From positions 31,730,610-31,794,609 of the forward strand of contig NC_030382.2 in NCBI RefSeq assembly GCF_001625215.2: a stretch of 64,000 nucleotides of DNA. The letters are read 5' to 3'. Below, in pieces: positions 3,001-60,500 of the stretch. The notes beneath the pieces were generated by a model that saw only the letters and a list, made by a program, of their open reading frames with translations, ran no database searches and was not told the DNA's origin. The translations under genes were made by a program, and so were the position numbers. This stretch comes from Daucus carota subsp. sativus. Lineage: Eukaryota; Streptophyta; Magnoliopsida; Apiales; Apiaceae. Position 1 is the stretch's first letter; every line of letters begins with the position of its first letter.

Positions 3001-4163
3001 ATATGTTTCATCTATTTGATGAATTAAATATTAAGGTAAACACTAAATAATTAGAGGAGTTTCAAATTTACCATCGATAAATATTGGGTCTCAAATTCAC
3101 TACTTTCAAATTTGGGGTCTTGAATTGACCACTTATAAGTCTGTGTTAAACTAACAAAATCTCAAACTTACCCCCGATCATTGGCAATTTTGCCTTGAAA
3201 GTTGTGAATTTGAGACTCCTAATTTGTTGGTGGTAAATATAAAGCTTCTCTAATTATATAGTGGTTGACTTGATATTTAACCCTCTATCTGATAACCCTT
3301 GGATATTCTGAAGTAAAATGTTTTTTATTTATTATATCTATTACTAGTTTTGTAGATATGAAGCGGTGTTTTGATCACTGCAAAATTGTGTTAATCTGCA
3401 AATAAACTGACTATTTGCCTTTGGTGGTGCTCATGTCTTCAGGGGAAAACTGGAATGACACCAACAATCGAAGAACTGACCGGTGCCTTGGAGAGCCATG
3501 AACTTTTTATCTACTTTGGTCATGGAAGTGGTAAGCCTTGTAATTTGAACTATCTGCTGCTCAGTATCTTTAACAAATAGTACAAGATTAAATCAAATCT
3601 AGATTATAGTTTCGTACACTTCTATTGATGAAGTTGAATGTGCCACAGGGGCGCAATATATTCCCAATCACGAAATTCAGAAGCTTAGAACGTGTGCTGC
3701 TACTCTCCTGATGGGATGCAGTAGTGGATCTTTATCTTTGAGTGGATCTTACAGCCCACAAGGAGCTCCACTGTGCTACCTTATAGCCGGATCTCCTGTA
3801 ATTGTTGCTAATTTATGGGAGGTAACTGACAAAGATATTGATCGATTTGGTAAGGCCATGCTTGATGCTTGGTTAAGAGAGAGATCAATGGATCAAGCAA
3901 GTTGTGCTCAATGTGATGCTATTACAGACGAACTAAAATCTCTGAGCATAAGTGCAGCTAAAGGAAAGGGGAAGAAAAAGACTTCACGAAAAATTTTATC
4001 TGCTATTTGTGATGTTAGTAAATGTAATACTTGTAGACACAGACCAAAGATTGGAACTTTTACGAGTCAAGCTCGAGAAGCATGCACTTTGCCATTTTTG
4101 ATTGGAGCATCACCAGTGTGTTATGGTGTTCCAACAGGCATAAAAAAGAAAGTAATCTTATAG
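1..4163 (+). CDS. ESP: Separase, C-terminal protease part (5' end outside window)
   Basis: Separase is the caspase-fold cysteine protease (peptidase C50) that cuts the cohesin kleisin at anaphase. Exons in the window: up to 49 (frame starts at base 3), 260-620, 878-1111, 3443-3530 and 3649-4163. All junctions are GT-AG and the phases add up to 414 residues plus a TAG stop. The catalytic His lies in YFGHGSG, split by the last intron, and the catalytic Cys in LLMGCSSG. The segment after it ([26 protein letters not shown], given here only in part as [10 protein letters not shown] and NLWEVTD) is typical of the family's protease domain. Family proteins are about 2000 residues, so most of the gene lies to the left. 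Intron 3 is long (2.3 kb) because of repeats. No defect is seen in the visible part. Confidence 0.95.
2055..2690. mobile_element. Long-inverted-repeat MITE-like element in separase intron 3
   Basis: Imperfect inverted repeats of about 40-45 bp lie at 2057-2104 and 2645-2684. They share the motif CAAATACAAACC at the outside and ACAAACTAAAAACC further in, followed by a matching TAGTGATATT/AATATCACTAA pair. The middle is G-rich on the + strand (2400-2600). I could not fix the target-site duplication, so the superfamily is open; long inverted repeats would fit a Mutator-like MITE. Confidence 0.5.
2691..3442. other. Rest of separase intron 3, repeat remnants
   Basis: The stretch 2771-2970 contains the TTTGACCGCATAG motif, also present at 26540-26560, so it looks like a worn copy of the same Stowaway-like family. 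The remainder (2980-3440) is AT-rich, with no coding signal beyond the acceptor at 3441-3442. Confidence 0.4.
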
Positions 4164-5227
4164 CATTCACATGTGTGACTTCTTTACACAACCAATCTCC
4201 GCCTACTGGTCTAACATAACAATTGTATACGAACTTCAATTATATAGAGCAGTCATCTGCACTGTATCATTGCATGTCTCCCTCTCTTGTTTTTTTTTTT
4301 GAGGGGAAGGAAGAGCAGTGCATATTTTAACCCCTTCACATCTATTTGTTTTTGCTGTAAAGTTGTTTTACGTACCGTGATTGTACTATACATTCTGCCC
4401 TAAAAACAATTGGGTTTTGTATCATTGTAAAGAATTATAGAATGTTGTTGGGAAAGCAAACAAATTTGAGAATGGAGTTAGTGAATTTGTACCGTGTTAA
4501 TGCGGTGACTCACTGTTAGGCATGTGAATGGATGAGATTTCTAATCGGAGTTAAATATGGAGTTATTAAAAAATAATCTTGTGTCAAATTTGATTCGATT
4601 AGATATGAATTTAGGTTGATTTTAGTTATCTCCGATTTAATCACTATATGTTATAAAAAATAAAATTTAATACATATATATTAATTCTGTCTAATTTATG
4701 TTATTATTAAAAATCACACTTTTAAAAAATATTAGTTGAATGCGGACTCTATAACATTCTTATTTTGACTTCACCTAGTTATATTAATCAAATTTAATCA
4801 ACAATTATATAAAGTTTATTATATAATTACAACTTTTAATTATATAGCATTCAACAAATATATATTCGACTTGTAATGTATTTTTAGTTTTAGACTTTTT
4901 GAAATTAAAAAAGAATAAAGGTTTATATATAATCAAAATTTTCTCATTTTAATTATAAAAAAGGTCGAACAATTCTATTATTTTGAGAAAGGAAATAATT
5001 TATTGCCTTAATTGTCTCTCATGTATTATTAATTTGAGTCATTATTACATTCAAATTAGTTAATAATAAAATATTAATGATATATAAATGATATTTTGAG
5101 AAATATATGAAAAGTTATTTTGGAAAAGGGAGAAAATAAAATATTTAGACAAACCTTATTTCTTCAATTAAGAAGCTGAAATGAGACGAAAATAATAACT
5201 TAAATTTATAACATGACATTTGTTATC
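4164..5227. other. Intergenic, 3' side of separase
   Basis: The first 250 bases are likely 3' UTR, including a T-run at 4291-4301. The rest is AT-rich DNA with no coding frame, RNA gene or clear element ends that I can support. Confidence 0.4.
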
Positions 5228-7079: not shown

Positions 7080-7470
7080 GAAGGGGATTGGGATTTTAAT
7101 GGATCGTTGGACTGTGTCTGATTTTGATTTTGTACGGATTCAAAATCCCATTGATTTTGATGGGATTTCAAAAAACTTAAAATACACTGAAAAATACCAC
7201 AAAATCCATTATTTTATGAAATGCAAAAAAATCCATCAGCATTTGAATACCATCAGATTTTAATAGATTTTAAACAATCTCAATTGAATACCATCCGATT
7301 TTAAAGCATAATTTAGAATCCCAATTGAATATCACCAGATTTTGTAACATAATTTAAAATCTCAATTGAATATTTCAAGATTTTAATGGATTTCAAACAA
7401 TCCGAATCGAATACCTTCCGATTTCATGAATGCAAAAAAATCTTTAAAATCCCAATCCAATACACCCATA
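7080..7470. mobile_element. Harbinger-like MITE, copy 2, just upstream of BOU
   Basis: The right end TTTAAAATCCCAATCCAATA runs into CACCC and then TAA at 7471-7473. The left end has GGGATTGGGATTTTAATGG after TAA at 7077-7079. The left terminus lacks several bases compared with the right, but the TAA duplication and the interior match copy 3 at 20110. It lies within about 40 bases of the likely 5' UTR of BOU. Confidence 0.75.
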
Positions 7471-15469: not shown

Positions 15470-15687
15470 TTGAGCTCATGACGAATTCTATTTTGATGGT
15501 ATTAATTATATTTGTTTTTGTCAGAAATTGAGTATATTTTAAAAATATTATTATTAATAGTATTTTAGATTATTATGAATAGAATACATCAATTTAGTAT
15601 AATAGTGTGTATTTTTTTCCCAAATTTCTTACGGATACGAAGAGTTTCGACAAATATAGTCTAACATCACGAGGTTGACTATATTAA
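15470..15687. mobile_element. Left part of a Harbinger-like MITE split by the Helitron
   Basis: It aligns along its length with the MITE at 31549-31942, through shared words such as GATGGTATT, TAAAAATA, GACAAATATAGTC and GAGGTTG. The match stops near 15688 and resumes at 19893. The left terminus is worn (about 15464-15475). Confidence 0.7.
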
Positions 15688-16269
15688 TTATGCTTTTTTA
15701 CCCGCTACGCATGGTTATATTATTAATATTTGTTTATATTTAAATTATATATATATATATTTTATATATTTATTTTATTTTATAATTTGAATAGATGAAA
15801 TAAAAAGAATAATTAATATAAATTATAACGAATGCTCTGTATTTTGTTGCCCAATTTTTTTGTTTATTTATTATAATGATATCAATAACTTATTCAAAAA
15901 ATTATTGTAACAAAATTATAATAGAAATGACATAATCAAAAATTTTGAAATTTAAATATAGCAATTTTAGACATTCATGTATTATTGGAGGGAAGTCATT
16001 TTTACTAAATTAAAGTCATCATTTCTTGACTGAACATATAAATCAAATATTATCATATACTAATTATATTTAAAGGCTTCTCAGCAGGACCATGTCTAGA
16101 TTTTATATAGATTATCTTTTTTTAGTTAAGGTCAGATATGATATACAAATGCACAATCCAAATTCAAAAACCATCCATGCTAGTCTAAATAAGCATCCAT
16201 GCTAGTCTAAATTGTCAGTACAAAAACCTCATAAAATTTGAGCAGAAACTTCTTTGCAACATCATCAGA

Positions 16270-17090
16270 TTCTCATCTAAAACTACATGTTGCATGAGTC
16301 ATCATCTTCGTCTTTGGAGAAACTGGATAAATCTTGTTCTAGAACTCAAGAAAAGTCAACAGGCTCGAATATAGATATATGGTTCGCATCAGCAAAACGT
16401 GGACTCTCTGCATCGAAAACATCACACTTGGCTAACTTGTATCCTCCCTACTTTATTGTTATCACATTTGCACTGATCACATTCTGAGAATCTGGACTTG
16501 ATTATGGCATTTTTGCTGGTTCTGGATCAACTGAACTTTATATTTCGCAGCTCAAACTCAAGCCTCTTCTTAAATGCTTTTTCTTTGAGTGATTTAACTT
16601 GGTGGATACAAAAAATTAAACTTCTAACTAAAACCAATAATTGAACTTGATTATGAAAACTATTTACCAATTTGGACAACTGAACTGTCTGAACATTTAT
16701 AATTCTATATAAATATATCATACTTGCATATAATGAAATTATGTTACTCAACTCTTTAAGACTAATAATTACTCGAGCCTCTATTTCTCGTTATCTTTAG
16801 AAAGGCTGTCATAATCCACTTCTAGCTTATCATAGCTTTCTTTCAAGATATCATAATCCTTTTCAAGTTGTTTAGTTTTTAAACTGGACTCGTCGGTTTT
16901 GAAACCATATGACAACTTGCCTAGACCGCAAACCAAGATCCTTTGCGAGTTGATATTCTCTCTCAGGTTCAAGTTTGTTCTCTACCTCAAATATTTTCTG
17001 AAGAAACTTAACCTGATCAACTGTAATTCATCTTTTCTTTTCAGGCTGATGAAAGCCAGAATCATAATCCAACTATATGCAAATTCACTG
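16270..17090 (-). pseudogene. HD-Zip class I transcription factor fragment
   Basis: The minus strand reads through homeodomain helix 3 ([16 protein letters not shown]), then in another frame the leucine zipper ([20 protein letters not shown]), as in ATHB5/6/16-type proteins. Upstream lies a homeodomain start resembling [13 protein letters not shown], with a stop codon at the second R of the usual KKRR. A frameshift separates WFQNRR from KTKQLE. A C-terminal piece near 16300-16390 resembles the acidic FEP.DFS...DLSSFSKDEDDD tail of the class. An intron-like gap lies between the zipper and the tail. It was captured as genomic DNA and cannot encode a full factor. Leucine-zipper residues are still recognisable, so decay is moderate. 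Confidence 0.88.
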
Positions 17091-17228
17091 GAAAAATTTC
17101 ATTTAGATCTTTTAGTAATTGTTATTTCATTTATATCTTTTATGAACGTAAACTGATTCTACGCTTAGATGTGCTGTAGCTCAAAACTTTAGAGTGCAAT
17201 AGTAACTTGACCGATCATTAATTCTTAC

Positions 17229-17998
17229 CATTCAACATGAAAGTCCCTTGCTCTCTGAGTTGCATAATTATCAGCCTTTGATTTTGTAAGACGTACATAT
17301 CATACAAAATCCAAGAGAATTCCAATCCTCCTCTTCTGTATGTTCTGGAACATATTTTTTGAATGTCATCCAGTTCTTCACTCTATCTCCAAATGTCTTG
17401 AAACAGAAGTCCTCATAATCAGCAAAATCTTTCCTGTACAGATTACATTAAGATTTATAAGCATAGTATACAATTTTGTTGTAGAAAAAATTGTGTTACT
17501 GTAGGAAATATGCTATAGAATTACTAATTTCTTTCCCTTTATACTTACACTAATTCGTGGCCTAACCATCCATTGTACTTCTCTTGAAGTGCTTGAGGTA
17601 GATGGTAGTGATTAAGATTAGCATATGGTGTTATGCCTGCAAAATAAAATGATAAATTGTGATTGATTATGAAGGATTACAATTTATTTGTCAACTGCAA
17701 AACTCTCAATCATTTTAAGCAAACCAATAAATTGTCTATGAATTAACTAACTTCTTTTAAGCATGTAATAGATTGGCATGTTATAGTACGCAACTCCCTT
17801 TCAATTCATTTTCTCAGTTCCATCTAAATTGAAAGTACAAACAATGAGAAACGTATGCATTTACTACTCTTTATACAGAATGCATTGAATGTTCTTGAAG
17901 TTGATTATTAGAATATTACTTGGAAAAATCCTGGACCATGAGATGGAAAATCTGTAGGCATCGAAGTTCAGCTTCTTCGTTAGATCAATATCTTCATG
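17229..17998 (-). pseudogene. GH1 beta-glucosidase fragment, four exon pieces
   Basis: Four exon-like pieces keep GT-AG borders and the order of a plant GH1 gene on the minus strand: about 17998-17920 (LNFDAYRFSISWSRIFP), 17823-17752 (KGVAYYN...YYMLKR), 17636-17549 (ITPYANLNHYHLPQALQEKY) and 17433-17229 ([20 protein letters not shown], then after a deletion and shift [16 protein letters not shown]). The NEP motif with the acid/base Glu, expected after KNWMTF, is deleted, and stop codons are present. The closest type is the BGLU44-like group; this is judged from memory of family sequences. The rest of the barrel, including the nucleophile, is absent. Confidence 0.9.
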
Positions 17999-18284
17999 TA
18001 TAAACAAAGATGCATACACAAACCAACAATATGAAATCCTACGAACCCTTAAACATCAGTCATGTAGCTAGCTACTTACATGGTACCTTAGCTGAGCCAG
18101 TATCGTTATCAAGAAAGCTAGCATCCGTTCACACAAAAGAAGGAATGAATTATAATTTAGAAAAACTCTTGCAGTATATTACATATTAACACATTATAGA
18201 CTTTTGATTAGCAAAAAAAGAACATAATAAATTTTTAGTTGAGTCAAAAACAAACTATGAGGTTTTGGAGCTGTGCTAGTGTAA

Positions 18285-18375
18285 AGCCACCTTCCATTTC
18301 TGTCCTGGACTTCGCCATTAACAGTATAATCCCTGTTTGCAGCTTCTACATATTTGAGGATACGCATGTAGAAAT
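18285..18375 (-). pseudogene. Unidentified coding-like fragment
   Basis: The minus strand keeps an open, protein-like stretch (EAANRDYTVNGEVQDRNG followed by RWLYTSTAPKP) between the GH1 and OLA1 fragments. I cannot name its source. It may belong to a fourth captured gene, or be an exon of the gene that supplied the OLA1 piece, although it does not resemble OLA1. Confidence 0.4.
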
Positions 18376-18435
18376 TTATGATATTAGATTCATGTAGTGT
18401 CCTAAACTAATAATGCAGAAAAGAAGATATGAATC

Positions 18436-18522
18436 TTACGTAAGATATGAAAAATGCCATCAACTGTATGAATGTGAGACATGTTATTGTTTCCAAGTCC
18501 TTGACCTTCATGAGCGCTTTTA
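18436..18522 (-). pseudogene. Obg-like ATPase (OLA1/YchF) fragment
   Basis: A single exon-sized piece reads SAHEGQGLGNNNMSHIHTVD and then GIFHILR. This matches the stretch after the G3 motif of plant OLA1 (family form GAHEGQGLGN.FLSHIRAVDGIFHVLR). Only about 29 residues remain, so it has no activity. It lies in the same orientation as the other captured fragments. Confidence 0.85.
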
Positions 18523-19687
18523 GAAATTGAAATTTATTATAAACTGTAATACCAGGAATCAAGAAAGAAATCAAGTAAATAGAAATTTATTAAAAACAGA
18601 AACCACGAAAGAAATCAAGCAAATAAATTACACAGAATATATGCTTCTACACAGAGTCCTCTCTTATACGCTTATTAAAAATAGGAGTCAATGTATTACA
18701 AAAATGAATAAATTATCATGTCTACACACTCACAAACATCCTCTCTCTTTTTAAACACATCACCATAGTTTCAAGTTGTAAAGTGAATCAATTCATTATA
18801 AGAAGCATCACAAAATTAATAATTAAATTAAATGAATGAAATTAATAGATGTAATAATCTGGAACAAACTCGTGGCTTGTTATGTGGTCAGAATTAACAT
18901 AGCCAAATTGAAACTCATCTTTGCATAATAACAAATATAGGCAGATGTATTGAAAATAAAGATAGGTCACAGAAAAGTACCCAACTGTCGAGGCGTGGAT
19001 TTGAGAGTACTCCGTTCCAACTGTGGAGCCGGCGACTTAAGATTACTCATTTCCAGAGAATCCATCCATTAGACTTCAAACCATTACAGCTGAGAAACGT
19101 AAGAAATGAAGAACTGATATAATCGATTAAGACATATGAAAATATATATACAACACTTGTAACTTGTAATATTTGACCATAATAGATATGCAACAATTGC
19201 AAGAAGATAAATCAATATATGCATACACACTCAAATTAACCAAAAAAATCATTAAAATAGCAGGCACAATTCAGAGAAAATCTAGAAAAAATTAGAAGTA
19301 CCAAATTCATTGATGCATTATATCAGACAGTTGGTGGTATAAAGAAACAAAAGCAAGAAAGAGAAAGATAATGAAATCAAGAACTAACCAAAAATTCGGA
19401 GAGATGGCGGAGGTTACATATCAATATCCGAAAGATCTTCAAATAGTTAATCACTACACCTGAGACAAATTAAACAACCAAAATTAGTAGGGTGGTTGAA
19501 TAACTAAATCCGCCGCATCTTTACCCAGCTTCAATTTCTCTCCATCTGGGTGCAAGCAATTGGAGAAGCAGCAAAAAGATTTTGTAAACTAATCCATTGA
19601 TTACTAATTTGAAATCGGATTAGAGATGGTACTGAAATTGCAAGAATGTTTTAATCGGCCGACACGTCTTTGAATTTAATGATGGAT
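18523..19687 (-). other. Helitron interior, possible captured leader and first exon
   Basis: At 18970-19062 the minus strand has an ATG followed by an open stretch (MDSLEMSNLKSPAPQLERST). Further upstream, 19395-19560 looks like a 5' leader with an intron (AG acceptor TCTCAG on the minus strand near 19460). I do not recognise the protein. It may be the captured start of another gene; no similarity search could be run. Confidence 0.3.
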
Positions 19688-19892
19688 GAGCTCTGTACTT
19701 GGTAAAGTAGATGGAGACAGAGGATTTTCTTTTGTAAGTATGTAGTTCAGCTTCAGCACGTGTGTAAGGAGGAGACAGCTGTAACAGTATGAGGCAGTGG
19801 CATATCCTTGTAAATACGCAGTTTTTTAGAAAGCTTTTTCGTAATCAGGCACTGTATTAGCCTTCAGGCTTTATAATATAAATAGAAATAGA

Positions 19893-20010
19893 TAGAAAAG
19901 GAAATATAGTATTCAAATTTGACTTTTTTACATAATTTTTATAATTTTTTTATATATTGTATGTTTTAAAAAAATTTAGTTAAGAGTTGTACATGGTTGG
20001 AGATATACTC
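19893..20010. mobile_element. Right part of the split Harbinger-like MITE
   Basis: It begins TAGAAAAGGAAATATAGT, matching the MITE interior, and ends TTTAGTTAAGAG...ATGGTTGGAGATATACTC, matching TTTAGCCAAGG...ATGGTTGGAGATGCTC at 31942. With 15470-15687 it forms one element of about 335 bases. Confidence 0.72.
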
Positions 20011-20109: not shown

Positions 20110-20573
20110 CGGGGGTGTATTCGATTGAGATTTTAATGGATTGTTTTTAGTCTATGAATTTTAATGGATTGTATGTGATTTTGATTTTGTGCGGATTTTT
20201 GATAAAACGTCGCAGAGTTGATAGGATTTGAGCACAATGCTTCAAAATCCCATTGATTTTGCTGGGATTTCAAAAAACTTAAAATACACTGAAGAATGCC
20301 ACAAAATCCATCATTTTATGAAATGCAAAAAAATCCATCAGCATTTGAATACCATCAGATTTTAATGGATTTTAAACAATCCCAATTGAATACCATTAGA
20401 TTTTAAAGCATAATTTAAAATTCCAATTGAATACCACTAGATTTTGTAGCATAATTTAAAATCCCAATTGAATACCTCAAGATTTAAATGGATTTCAAAC
20501 AATCCCAATCGAATACCCTCGGATTTCATGAATGCAAAAAAAATGCTTTAAAATCTCAATCAATACACCCCTC
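20110..20573. mobile_element. Harbinger-like MITE, copy 3 (464 bp)
   Basis: The best-kept copy of the GGGTGTATT family. Terminal inverted repeats run from GGGGTGTATTCGATTGAGAT at the left to ATCTCAATCAATACACCCC at the right. A TTA duplication lies at 20107-20109 and 20574-20576. The interior matches 7080-7470 almost word for word. No transposase frame is present. Confidence 0.88.
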
Positions 20574-52668: not shown

Positions 52669-53835
52669 TCAAGGCCAAGGGTAATAGCCACCATGGCCAC
52701 CACCAGAGCCTCCACCGCCCCCACCAGCATATCCCCCTCCTCCTGCACCACCACCTTCTCCACCGCCACTCCCATGTCCACCACCAGGACCGTAACCACC
52801 TCCGCCCCCTCCTCCGTGACCACCTCCTCCACCATGCTCACCCCCCGTCCCATATCCGCCACCACTGCCACTACCTGCACCTCCGCCATAGCCACCTCCA
52901 GGTACGTATCCACCACCACCTCCTCCACCACTACCACCACCACCGCCACCTCCATGTCCTCCGGGACCATATCCCCCGCCACCACTCCCACCACCTGCAC
53001 CTCCTCCACCTCCATATCCTCCTCCATGCTCACCACCAGTCCCATAACCACCTCCACCACCATTGCCACCTCCCCCACCATATGCTCCTCCATGTTCACC
53101 ACCAGCCCCATAACCACCTCCACCACCATTGCCACCTCCCCCACCATATGCTCCTCCATGTTCACCACCAGTCCCATAACCACCCCCACCACCATTTCCA
53201 CCTCCCCCACCGTATCCTCCTCCTCCATGTTCACCACCACCGCCGCCATTCCCACCACCATGTCCACCGCCGCCTCCTGCACCACCACCTCCATATCCCC
53301 CACCTTCCCCATTGCCACCACCTCCTCCACCTCCACCATATCCGGGGCCATGTTCCACTCCACCTCCATAGCCATTTCCACCACCATTCCCACCACCTGC
53401 ACCACTTCCATATCCCCCTCCATGCACCCCACCACCACCATAGCCTCCCCCTCCACCACTACCACCCCCTCCACCACCTCCACCATAACCCGGGCCATGC
53501 TCACCTACACCATAACCCCCACTACCACCACCACTGCCACCTCCTCCTCCACTTCCATATCCCCCTCCATGCGCCCCACCACCACCTCCTCCCCCTCCAC
53601 CATTGCCACCTCCACCGCCACCTCCACCAAAACCCGGACCATGCTCAGTTCCATAGCCAGCACCACCACTACCACTACCTCCACCACTCCCATAACCAAA
53701 AGCGTCATGATCACCACCTACAACACCACCATAGCCTTCTTCAACAGAAAGGAGAGCTCTAGCAGCAGAGCATAATGCCACACAAAGTAATATACAATAA
53801 ACAACACCAAGAACTTTGTGCATAGCCATTCTCAT
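52669..53835 (-). CDS. Secreted glycine-rich protein, 388 residues
   Basis: Residues 1-26 form a signal peptide (VLGVVYCILLCVALCSA before ARALLS), pointing to the apoplast or cell wall. After SVEEGYGGVVGGDHDAFGYG, the rest is Gly-rich, with Tyr, His, Glu and Asn in repeats such as GGEHGGAYGGGGGNGGGGGY (copies near 53020-53250, 66-bp unit). It ends GGYYPWP. This fits class I plant GRPs, which lie in cell walls; the exact role is not known. There is a single exon. Met1, Met3 and Met5 are all possible starts. A paralogue lies 6 kb away on the same strand. Repeat number is likely to vary between individuals. Confidence 0.88.
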   Translation of the reverse strand: MRMAMHKVLGVVYCILLCVALCSAARALLSVEEGYGGVVGGDHDAFGYGSGGGSGSGGAGYGTEHGPGFGGGGGGGGNGGGGGGGGGAHGGGYGSGGGGGSGGGSGGYGVGEHGPGYGGGGGGGGSGGGGGYGGGGVHGGGYGSGAGGGNGGGNGYGGGVEHGPGYGGGGGGGGNGEGGGYGGGGAGGGGGHGGGNGGGGGEHGGGGYGGGGGNGGGGGYGTGGEHGGAYGGGGGNGGGGGYGAGGEHGGAYGGGGGNGGGGGYGTGGEHGGGYGGGGGAGGGSGGGGYGPGGHGGGGGGGSGGGGGGGYVPGGGYGGGAGSGSGGGYGTGGEHGGGGGHGGGGGGGYGPGGGHGSGGGEGGGAGGGGYAGGGGGGSGGGHGGYYPWP

Positions 53836-53891
53836 GTCTAAGTGTCAAAACACAAAAGATGTACGAGCAAGAAATGTGATCGGAGTGTGAA

Positions 53892-59767: not shown

Positions 59768-60457
59768 TCAAGGTGCATAGCCACCATGTCCACCACCTTC
59801 TCCGCTTCCGGAACCACTTCCATAACCGGAAGCAGCTCCATGTTCACCTCCAGCTGCCCCGTATCCACCGCCGCCGCCACCCCCAGAACCTCCACCGCCG
59901 CCACCACCAGCTGCACCACCATGCCCTCCTGAACCACCACCTGCACCAGAACCTCCTCCAGTCCCATATCCACTTCCCCCGGCTCCTCCTGCACCGGAAC
60001 CTCCGCCACCGCCACCACCATGACCTCCTCCACCACCGTATCCCCCAGCACCTCCATAACCAGCCCCCTCACCACCGCCTTCACCACCACCATAGCCACC
60101 ACCATGGGCACCACCAGAACCGCCACCACCTCCACCACCACTTCCAGCACCACCTCCACCACCACCACCACCACCTTCTCTTCCACCTCCATATCCAGCA
60201 CCGCCGCCTTCTCCAGCTCCCCTTCCAGATCCAGAACCATGATCACCTCCAGCACCGTAACCACCTCCTCCTCCTCCACCACTACCGCCACCGCCTCCAC
60301 CACCACCACCAGAAGCCAGTTCATGATCCGTAGCACCTGAGTGGTATGATCCGTAGCCAGCACTCTGTTCATAAGAGAAGAGAGTTCTAGCAGCGGAACA
60401 TATTCCTGAACATAACAATACCAGAAAAACTATAGTGGACCCTTTGTGAGTTGCCAT
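59768..60457 (-). CDS. Secreted glycine-rich protein, 229 residues
   Basis: Signal peptide STIVFLVLLCSGICSA, then ARTLFSYEQSAGYGSYHSG and a long Gly-rich region with Tyr, Ala, Ser and His (GGGGGGYGAGGDHGSGSG), ending GGGHGGYAP. The mature N-terminus, SA-ART/ALLFS-type, matches the 388-residue protein at 52669-53835, so the two are likely tandem duplicates that differ mostly in repeat number. Predicted cell-wall or apoplastic structural protein. Single exon. The start ATG at 60457 is the only in-frame choice before the signal peptide. Confidence 0.88.
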   Translation of the reverse strand: MATHKGSTIVFLVLLCSGICSAARTLFSYEQSAGYGSYHSGATDHELASGGGGGGGGGSGGGGGGGYGAGGDHGSGSGRGAGEGGGAGYGGGREGGGGGGGGGAGSGGGGGGGSGGAHGGGYGGGEGGGEGAGYGGAGGYGGGGGHGGGGGGGSGAGGAGGSGYGTGGGSGAGGGSGGHGGAAGGGGGGGSGGGGGGGYGAAGGEHGAASGYGSGSGSGEGGGHGGYAP

Positions 60458-60500
60458 TGAATTTAGACTCTGATATATGTAAAACCCTCTGTGAGCTACC

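Follow-up and report, generated by a model that had tools for sequence, protein, structure and literature searches.

A 64,000-nucleotide stretch of the carrot genome (Daucus carota subsp. sativus, C2:31730610-31794609; hereafter the window) contains at positions 15688-19892 what is very probably a decayed, non-autonomous Helitron, the cargo of which was assembled stepwise from three unrelated host genes encoding HD-Zip I, GH1 beta-glucosidase and OLA1 proteins. The sense strand of the element is the minus strand, on which it begins TCTATTTC...AAAGCCTGAAGGC at 19892 (5' end) and finishes at 15688 (3' end). A Helitron with pieces of these three genes had been proposed in a sequence-only reading of the window, and the proposal is borne out by termini common to other copies, by empty sites, by a sibling that encodes Rep and helicase and by three separate parent loci. 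The host of the insertion is a dispersed repeat, recognised from genome matches and empty-site comparison, with the left part of the target at 15621-15687 and the right part at 19893-20004 (no strand assigned). The flanks were joined (15687|19893) and searched against the genome, the genome searches taking in 441 Mb on 11 contigs, and scores were computed for 40 of the 135 candidates. Of the 40 matches listed, two come from the flanks in the window itself; among the 38 that remain, 36 span the junction, which indicates that 15688-19892 is a single insertion in an A|T site. Moreover, one empty copy of the repeat was aligned base by base against the joined flanks, and the empty-site comparison places the insertion at an A|T target without target-site duplication. 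Repeat paralogues that lack the 4.2 kb fix the boundaries to within 1-2 bases, and to that precision the proposed coordinates of a single element are correct.

The 5' terminus (19860-19892, minus strand) consists of TC after a flanking A, followed by ATTTATATTATAAAGCCTGAAGGC, and the junction with the target reads A|TCTATTTC at 19893/19892. The motif has 26 genome matches with up to two mismatches and the reversed-pattern control has none, so the Helitron 5' end of the earlier reading is confirmed as a recurring sequence. TC follows A in 15 of the 19 family 5' ends that were compared by eye, a tally that excludes an additional motif within L023 as well as the mirror match of that motif. A 5' terminal module of about 400 bp (19491-19892, minus strand) is 68-80% identical to L009, L012, L016, L018, L023 and L025 from their 5' ends. 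At the opposite end, a 3' terminal module (15688-15805, minus strand) is 84% identical to C7:40710027-40710159 and 82% identical to C2:53903983-53904087, and it includes a conserved, imperfect palindrome, ACCATGCGTAGCGGGT, at 15700-15715 on the minus strand. The 3' end motif has 66 genome matches at the same threshold and again none in the reversed control; the excess over the 26 matches of the 5' motif indicates that the 3' motif is not confined to the family of the window element. Each end motif occurs once in the window, with 0.00 and 0.02 occurrences expected, and by eye the two ends differ in sequence, no inverted-repeat search having been made.

Pairing of these motifs delimits a family of elements. 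For 15 of the 26 5' matches, a 3' end of matching orientation lies within 30 kb, the chance of a paired end within that distance being about 0.002 per end; two of these matches belong to one element with a doubled motif, leaving 14 distinct elements, and the other 11 have no partner within 30 kb. The end pairs of 13 distinct elements, including that of the window, span 2.0-14.5 kb, and one further pair, at 26 kb, is doubtful. Four of these 13 were available whole (the window element, L023, L025 and the element covered by L050 and L051), L016 and L018 were available in part, and the remaining seven (C1:20.30, C5:1.94, C6:3.65, C7:35.08, C7:35.20, C7:36.15 and C9:14.07 Mb) were covered by 0.7-1 kb around the 5' end, from which the end itself was compared. 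Copies with both ends of the window element and different cargo, which the earlier reading had named as support for its proposal, are found in L023 and L025, two siblings with 88% mutual identity over 1.67 kb. Both carry an HD-Zip piece and a weak match to mitochondrial carriers (below the cut-off, with E 0.0016 and 0.0007), and neither has a match to the GH1 or OLA1 parts of the window element. The element at C3:37546595-37561078 (L050, L051) is 14.5 kb long, has both family ends and contains a 533-amino-acid frame matching Helitron_like_N (Pfam, 7.3e-39) and a second frame of 552 amino acids matching PIF1 helicase (Pfam, 2.1e-88), making it a candidate autonomous family member. Sequence common to this element and that of the window is limited to their ends, over 27 and 24 bp. 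A further open reading frame (ORF) in the 14.5-kb sibling is presumably RPA-like, for which Pfam gave no support. In addition, an identity of 99.2% between L016 and L018 over 2,567 bp suggests recent movement within the family; two ORFs tried from the L016 cargo had no Pfam match. Three elements of the family are found on contig C7 within 35083471-36150048.

The HD-Zip I piece (16291-17070, minus strand) is 81% identical to C2:47251767-47252498 and contains the homeodomain and leucine zipper, confirmed by Pfam (Homeodomain, 1.5e-14; HALZ, 1.4e-11). The two domains lie in different frames and the N-terminal first exon is missing. Six family loci have an HD-Zip piece, namely the window, L013, L021, L022, L023 and L025, the last five matching the same C2 gene; L013 and L021 retain the first exon, and their matches to the parent start close together, at 3933 and 3912. 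A module at 19205-19406 (minus strand) precedes HD-Zip in the same order in L013, L021, L022 (19205-19263 only) and L023. It was considered as an HD-Zip promoter and rejected, since it is not found upstream of the C2 gene within the locus compared. A segment adjoining HD-Zip at 16114-16190 (minus strand) is common to L013, L023 and L025.

The GH1 piece (17137-18012, minus strand) includes introns and is 92% identical to C3:49797026-49798216, with 312 bp of the parent, a stretch that holds NEP, missing at 17358/17359. Its identity is likewise upheld by Pfam, the separate GH1 matches having E-values of 1.6e-5, 4.3e-4 (below the cut-off) and 1.7e-9. With exon limits set by eye, exons are 94.4% (469/497) and introns 89.7% (339/378) identical to the parent, as expected of a free copy beside a constrained parent and also compatible with constraint on the copy. 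In the exon that reads NWKG in the parent, the W codon is by eye replaced by TGA. Among the genome matches listed, the counts of which are lower bounds, no copy of the piece was found beyond the window element and the parent. Between the GH1 and HD-Zip pieces, 66 bp (17071-17136, minus strand) have no source found and contain a 19-nt direct repeat (17096-17114 and 17124-17142) with one mismatch, which reaches over the GH1 edge. A comparable repeat arose in 3 of 250 random draws from the window and in none of 300 shuffles.

The third piece comprises an OLA1 exon (18394-18522) and intron sequence (18340-18522 overall, minus strand), with 90% identity to L014 (183 bp) and to the OLA1 gene on C2 (129 bp). 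The claim of an OLA1 fragment stands on DNA identity, the 43-amino-acid ORF having no Pfam match. The name rests on the 129 bp shared with C2:52901086-52901214, about 5 kb from YchF-GTPase_C matches on the implied strand; the two best YchF matches each contain one internal TGA, which may be an exon border. The parents of GH1 and HD-Zip were recognised from open exons and Pfam domains and that of OLA1 from one exon and the YchF C-terminal matches, short of full gene models. The parents are dispersed, at C2:47.25 Mb (HD-Zip), C3:49.80 Mb (GH1) and C2:52.90 Mb (OLA1), the two on C2 being about 5.6 Mb apart. As the earlier reading had it, the three pieces retain introns and share one orientation, all lying on the minus strand, the sense strand of the element.

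The OLA1 piece adjoins a segment (18519-19147, minus strand) that is common to a second Helitron family with a different 5' end (...AAAGCCTGTTGCC), referred to here as family b, parts of which were matched in L014, L015, L017, L024 and L028. This segment was also considered as the upstream part of OLA1, a possibility rejected on two grounds: it is not found in the 4.7 kb upstream of the C2 exon, and it is present without an OLA1 match in L015, L017 and L028. In L014 and L024 the family-b segment is followed by the OLA1 piece, and both alignments start at parent base 4614. The piece is also present in L009, which has the same 5' end as the window element and is 80% identical to it along 18371-19886. 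Among the columns of the OLA1 alignment in which the two OLA1 genes have the same base, 24 are variable in the four Helitron copies. Three of these columns, two of them adjacent, have the same derived base in all four Helitron copies and the old base in both genes, and on these grounds independent capture by each family is rejected. The derived base is confined to the window and L009 in two columns and in a third that falls in the badly aligned first part of L009, and no column groups the Helitron copies otherwise. From these bases, it is most likely that OLA1 was captured once and passed between Helitron families. In general terms it seems probable, with appreciable room for doubt, that families here trade cargo, an exon captured once (L014, L024) having been passed with its flanks to another family (window, L009), and that acquisitions are internal and leave readable layers. 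If so, captured genes spread beyond the Helitron family that first took them. Family b includes other composite stretches. L014:3955-8453 (C7:22.03 Mb) is Helitron-like and has pieces of OLA1, Cupin_8 (below the cut-off) and NmrA behind one family-b 5' end; the Cupin_8 piece is presumably JMJ30-like. L028:1-7860 (C4:24.57 Mb) is a family-b element with ORFs that we take to resemble sterol 4-alpha-methyl oxidase and JMJ30, one ORF tried having no Pfam match, and an arrangement very like it, judged by match spacing, is present at C2:44.32 Mb.

A probable history of the element can be drawn from its siblings. We infer that an autonomous sibling sharing these ends, with C3:37546595-37561078 as a candidate, would have provided Rep and helicase in trans, and that rolling-circle replication would have moved the element into the A|T site of the dispersed repeat. 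The HD-Zip I segment was probably the first cargo, placed before OLA1 because the 19205-19406 module, which accompanies HD-Zip elsewhere, is present in L009. A segment of the second family already carrying the OLA1 exon would have followed. The GH1 segment would have come last; with a Kimura distance of 0.081 it is the nearest to its parent of the three cargo genes and looks to be the youngest capture. Gene capture by Helitrons has been explained by a filler-DNA model. OLA1 and GH1 may have been acquired inside the element as filler DNA during break repair, or by nested insertion and subsequent deletion, and the repeat and the 66 sourceless bp at the GH1/HD-Zip junction suggest filler DNA.

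Several rival explanations bear on this history. Decayed pieces with introns would also be found in a degenerate pseudogene cluster or segmental duplication lying by chance between two Helitron-like motifs, but this is so improbable as to be hardly credible: the 36 empty sites among the 38 other repeat matches listed rule out a chance cluster, both ends and internal modules are common to siblings, and the parent genes lie at three distant places. Alternatively, cargo may be added when the machinery passes the 3' end and stops at a later terminator, transducing flanking DNA, a read-through that has been shown for Helraiser (PMC4778049) and to which the weak 3' palindrome of this family might lend itself. 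Nevertheless, OLA1 and GH1 are on the 5' side of the HD-Zip piece and of the family 3' module and do not look like additions by 3' read-through. Furthermore, the first HD-Zip exon, which L013 and L021 retain, is lost at the repeat-bearing GH1/HD-Zip junction, and no sibling compared has OLA1 or GH1 placed after an HD-Zip piece and an old 3' end, so that read-through is an unlikely source of this cargo. A closer contest concerns the OLA1 segment, which may be a whole family-b Helitron nested in an element of the window's own family (family a), with its ends later deleted, instead of a part-capture. Between 19147 and 18340 the family-b matches follow the expected order, which favours nesting, and nested Helitrons occur in maize (PMC3288121), but the family-b 5' end motif, the only one of its end motifs looked at, is absent from the window element. 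Nesting is a real possibility, though somewhat less probable than not.

Beyond sequence history, it can be asked whether the element has an effect. The broken frames (the fragments being frameshifted, truncated and stop-containing) and a longest sense ORF across the element of 87 amino acids make a fused protein from the chimera unlikely. A VQ-motif gene follows on the same strand, its likely start codon about 0.87 kb downstream of the 3' end, and a promoter effect on that gene is possible. As the earlier reading supposed, the chimera might also be transcribed, giving a fused RNA or small RNAs acting on HD-Zip, GH1 or OLA1 genes, and alteration of the downstream VQ gene is a further conceivable effect. 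The sense orientation of all the pieces, their identity to GH1 (92%) and HD-Zip (81%) and the proximity of the VQ start codon would fit such effects; against them stand the short longest ORF and, by eye, a GH1 piece with a nonsense codon and without the NEP stretch, and the common orientation would be expected by chance in 1/4 of cases for three pieces and in 1/8 for pieces and element together. On sequence grounds, an effect of this kind would be very unlikely.

A number of observations weigh against the element being a typical Helitron or against the proposed order of captures. The exceptions among the 19 5' ends are T before TC in L012a, L042 and L045, and L037 has no TC end. The last 3' bases of the window copy are ATAA, without the terminal CTAG that precedes T in seven of the eight other 3' ends examined (L013, L016, L021, L022, L023, L031 and L051; not L025); this is taken as decay. 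Helitrons typically end in CTRR before T, with a short hairpin 10-13 bases from that end. A stable fold was not supported for the terminal hairpin of the earlier reading. The palindrome CCATGCGTAGCGGG has a minimum free energy of -0.9 to -1.3 kcal/mol in three copies and folds no better than shuffles in any of them, with 128, 125 and 123 of 200 shuffles equal or better. With composite flanks, an end variant with GCCC/GGGC reached -4.1 kcal/mol (22 of 200 shuffles as good), and 126 of 200 shuffles folded as well as another variant; at best, the 3' hairpin is a weakened one. As to the order, L009 has OLA1 without any HD-Zip match, the Kimura distances of the OLA1 piece from the C2 gene (0.156) and of the HD-Zip piece from its parent (0.165) do not order the two, and constraint on the parent genes means that distances date captures poorly. 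The OLA1 evidence is also short, at 126 common columns. Finally, the proposed history does not account for the stretches 15806-16113 and 18013-18339. The second (minus strand) contains an ORF (...NRDYTVNGEVQDRNGRWLYTS...) with no Pfam match and a single PDB match, 18 residues long (E 0.0018), and a part of it is 85% identical to C6:15889334 (one genome match), with no convincing match overall.

Elsewhere in the window, a similar 41-bp unit (TTGAATACCATCAGATTTTAA...) is repeated in tandem in two arrays, at 7233-7424 and 20295-20526, the second 0.4 kb from the Helitron. The window also has two glycine-rich protein frames with tandem codon repeats on the minus strand (52669-53844 and 59768-60499), with a GC skew of -0.50 around the former.

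The sources of the cargo and much of the order of capture can be read from the siblings, one piece being apparently second-hand, and the family provides a eudicot test set for the competing capture models of filler DNA, read-through and nesting. It also calls for caution in annotation, as any gene model for HD-Zip, GH1 or OLA1 placed in 15688-19892 would describe transposon cargo. Three known systems invite comparison. Autonomous plant Helitrons encode RepHel, often with an RPA-like gene, according to the Mothra paper (PMC4683698); the family resembles them in its TC start, the CTAG of most siblings and the Rep and helicase of the 14.5-kb sibling, whereas the window element encodes no such protein and has an imperfect palindrome. 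Carrot itself has a Helitron in the Y2 candidate gene of orange carrot on chromosome 7 (PMC10581907), a 17-kb insertion that breaks a coding sequence, in contrast to the 4.2-kb window element. Closest are the maize Helitrons of Dong et al. 2011 (PMC3288121), which took up fragments of several genes step by step, from more than one chromosome, and may also be nested. The likeness extends to gene pieces from more than one chromosome built up over successive transpositions and to relatives with common ends and some common pieces. In the literature searched on carrot and Helitron capture, which lay outside supplements and most subscription papers, no description of the HD-Zip/GH1/OLA1 trio or of the window element was found. 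Any novelty of the combination would be confined to the trio; stepwise multi-gene capture is known in maize (PMC3288121). The carrot element differs from the maize Helitrons in species and end sequences; moreover, names can be given here to its parents, to the derived bases it shares and, for one piece, to the likely donor Helitron family. It represents a known process, seen here at good resolution, and not a new kind of element.

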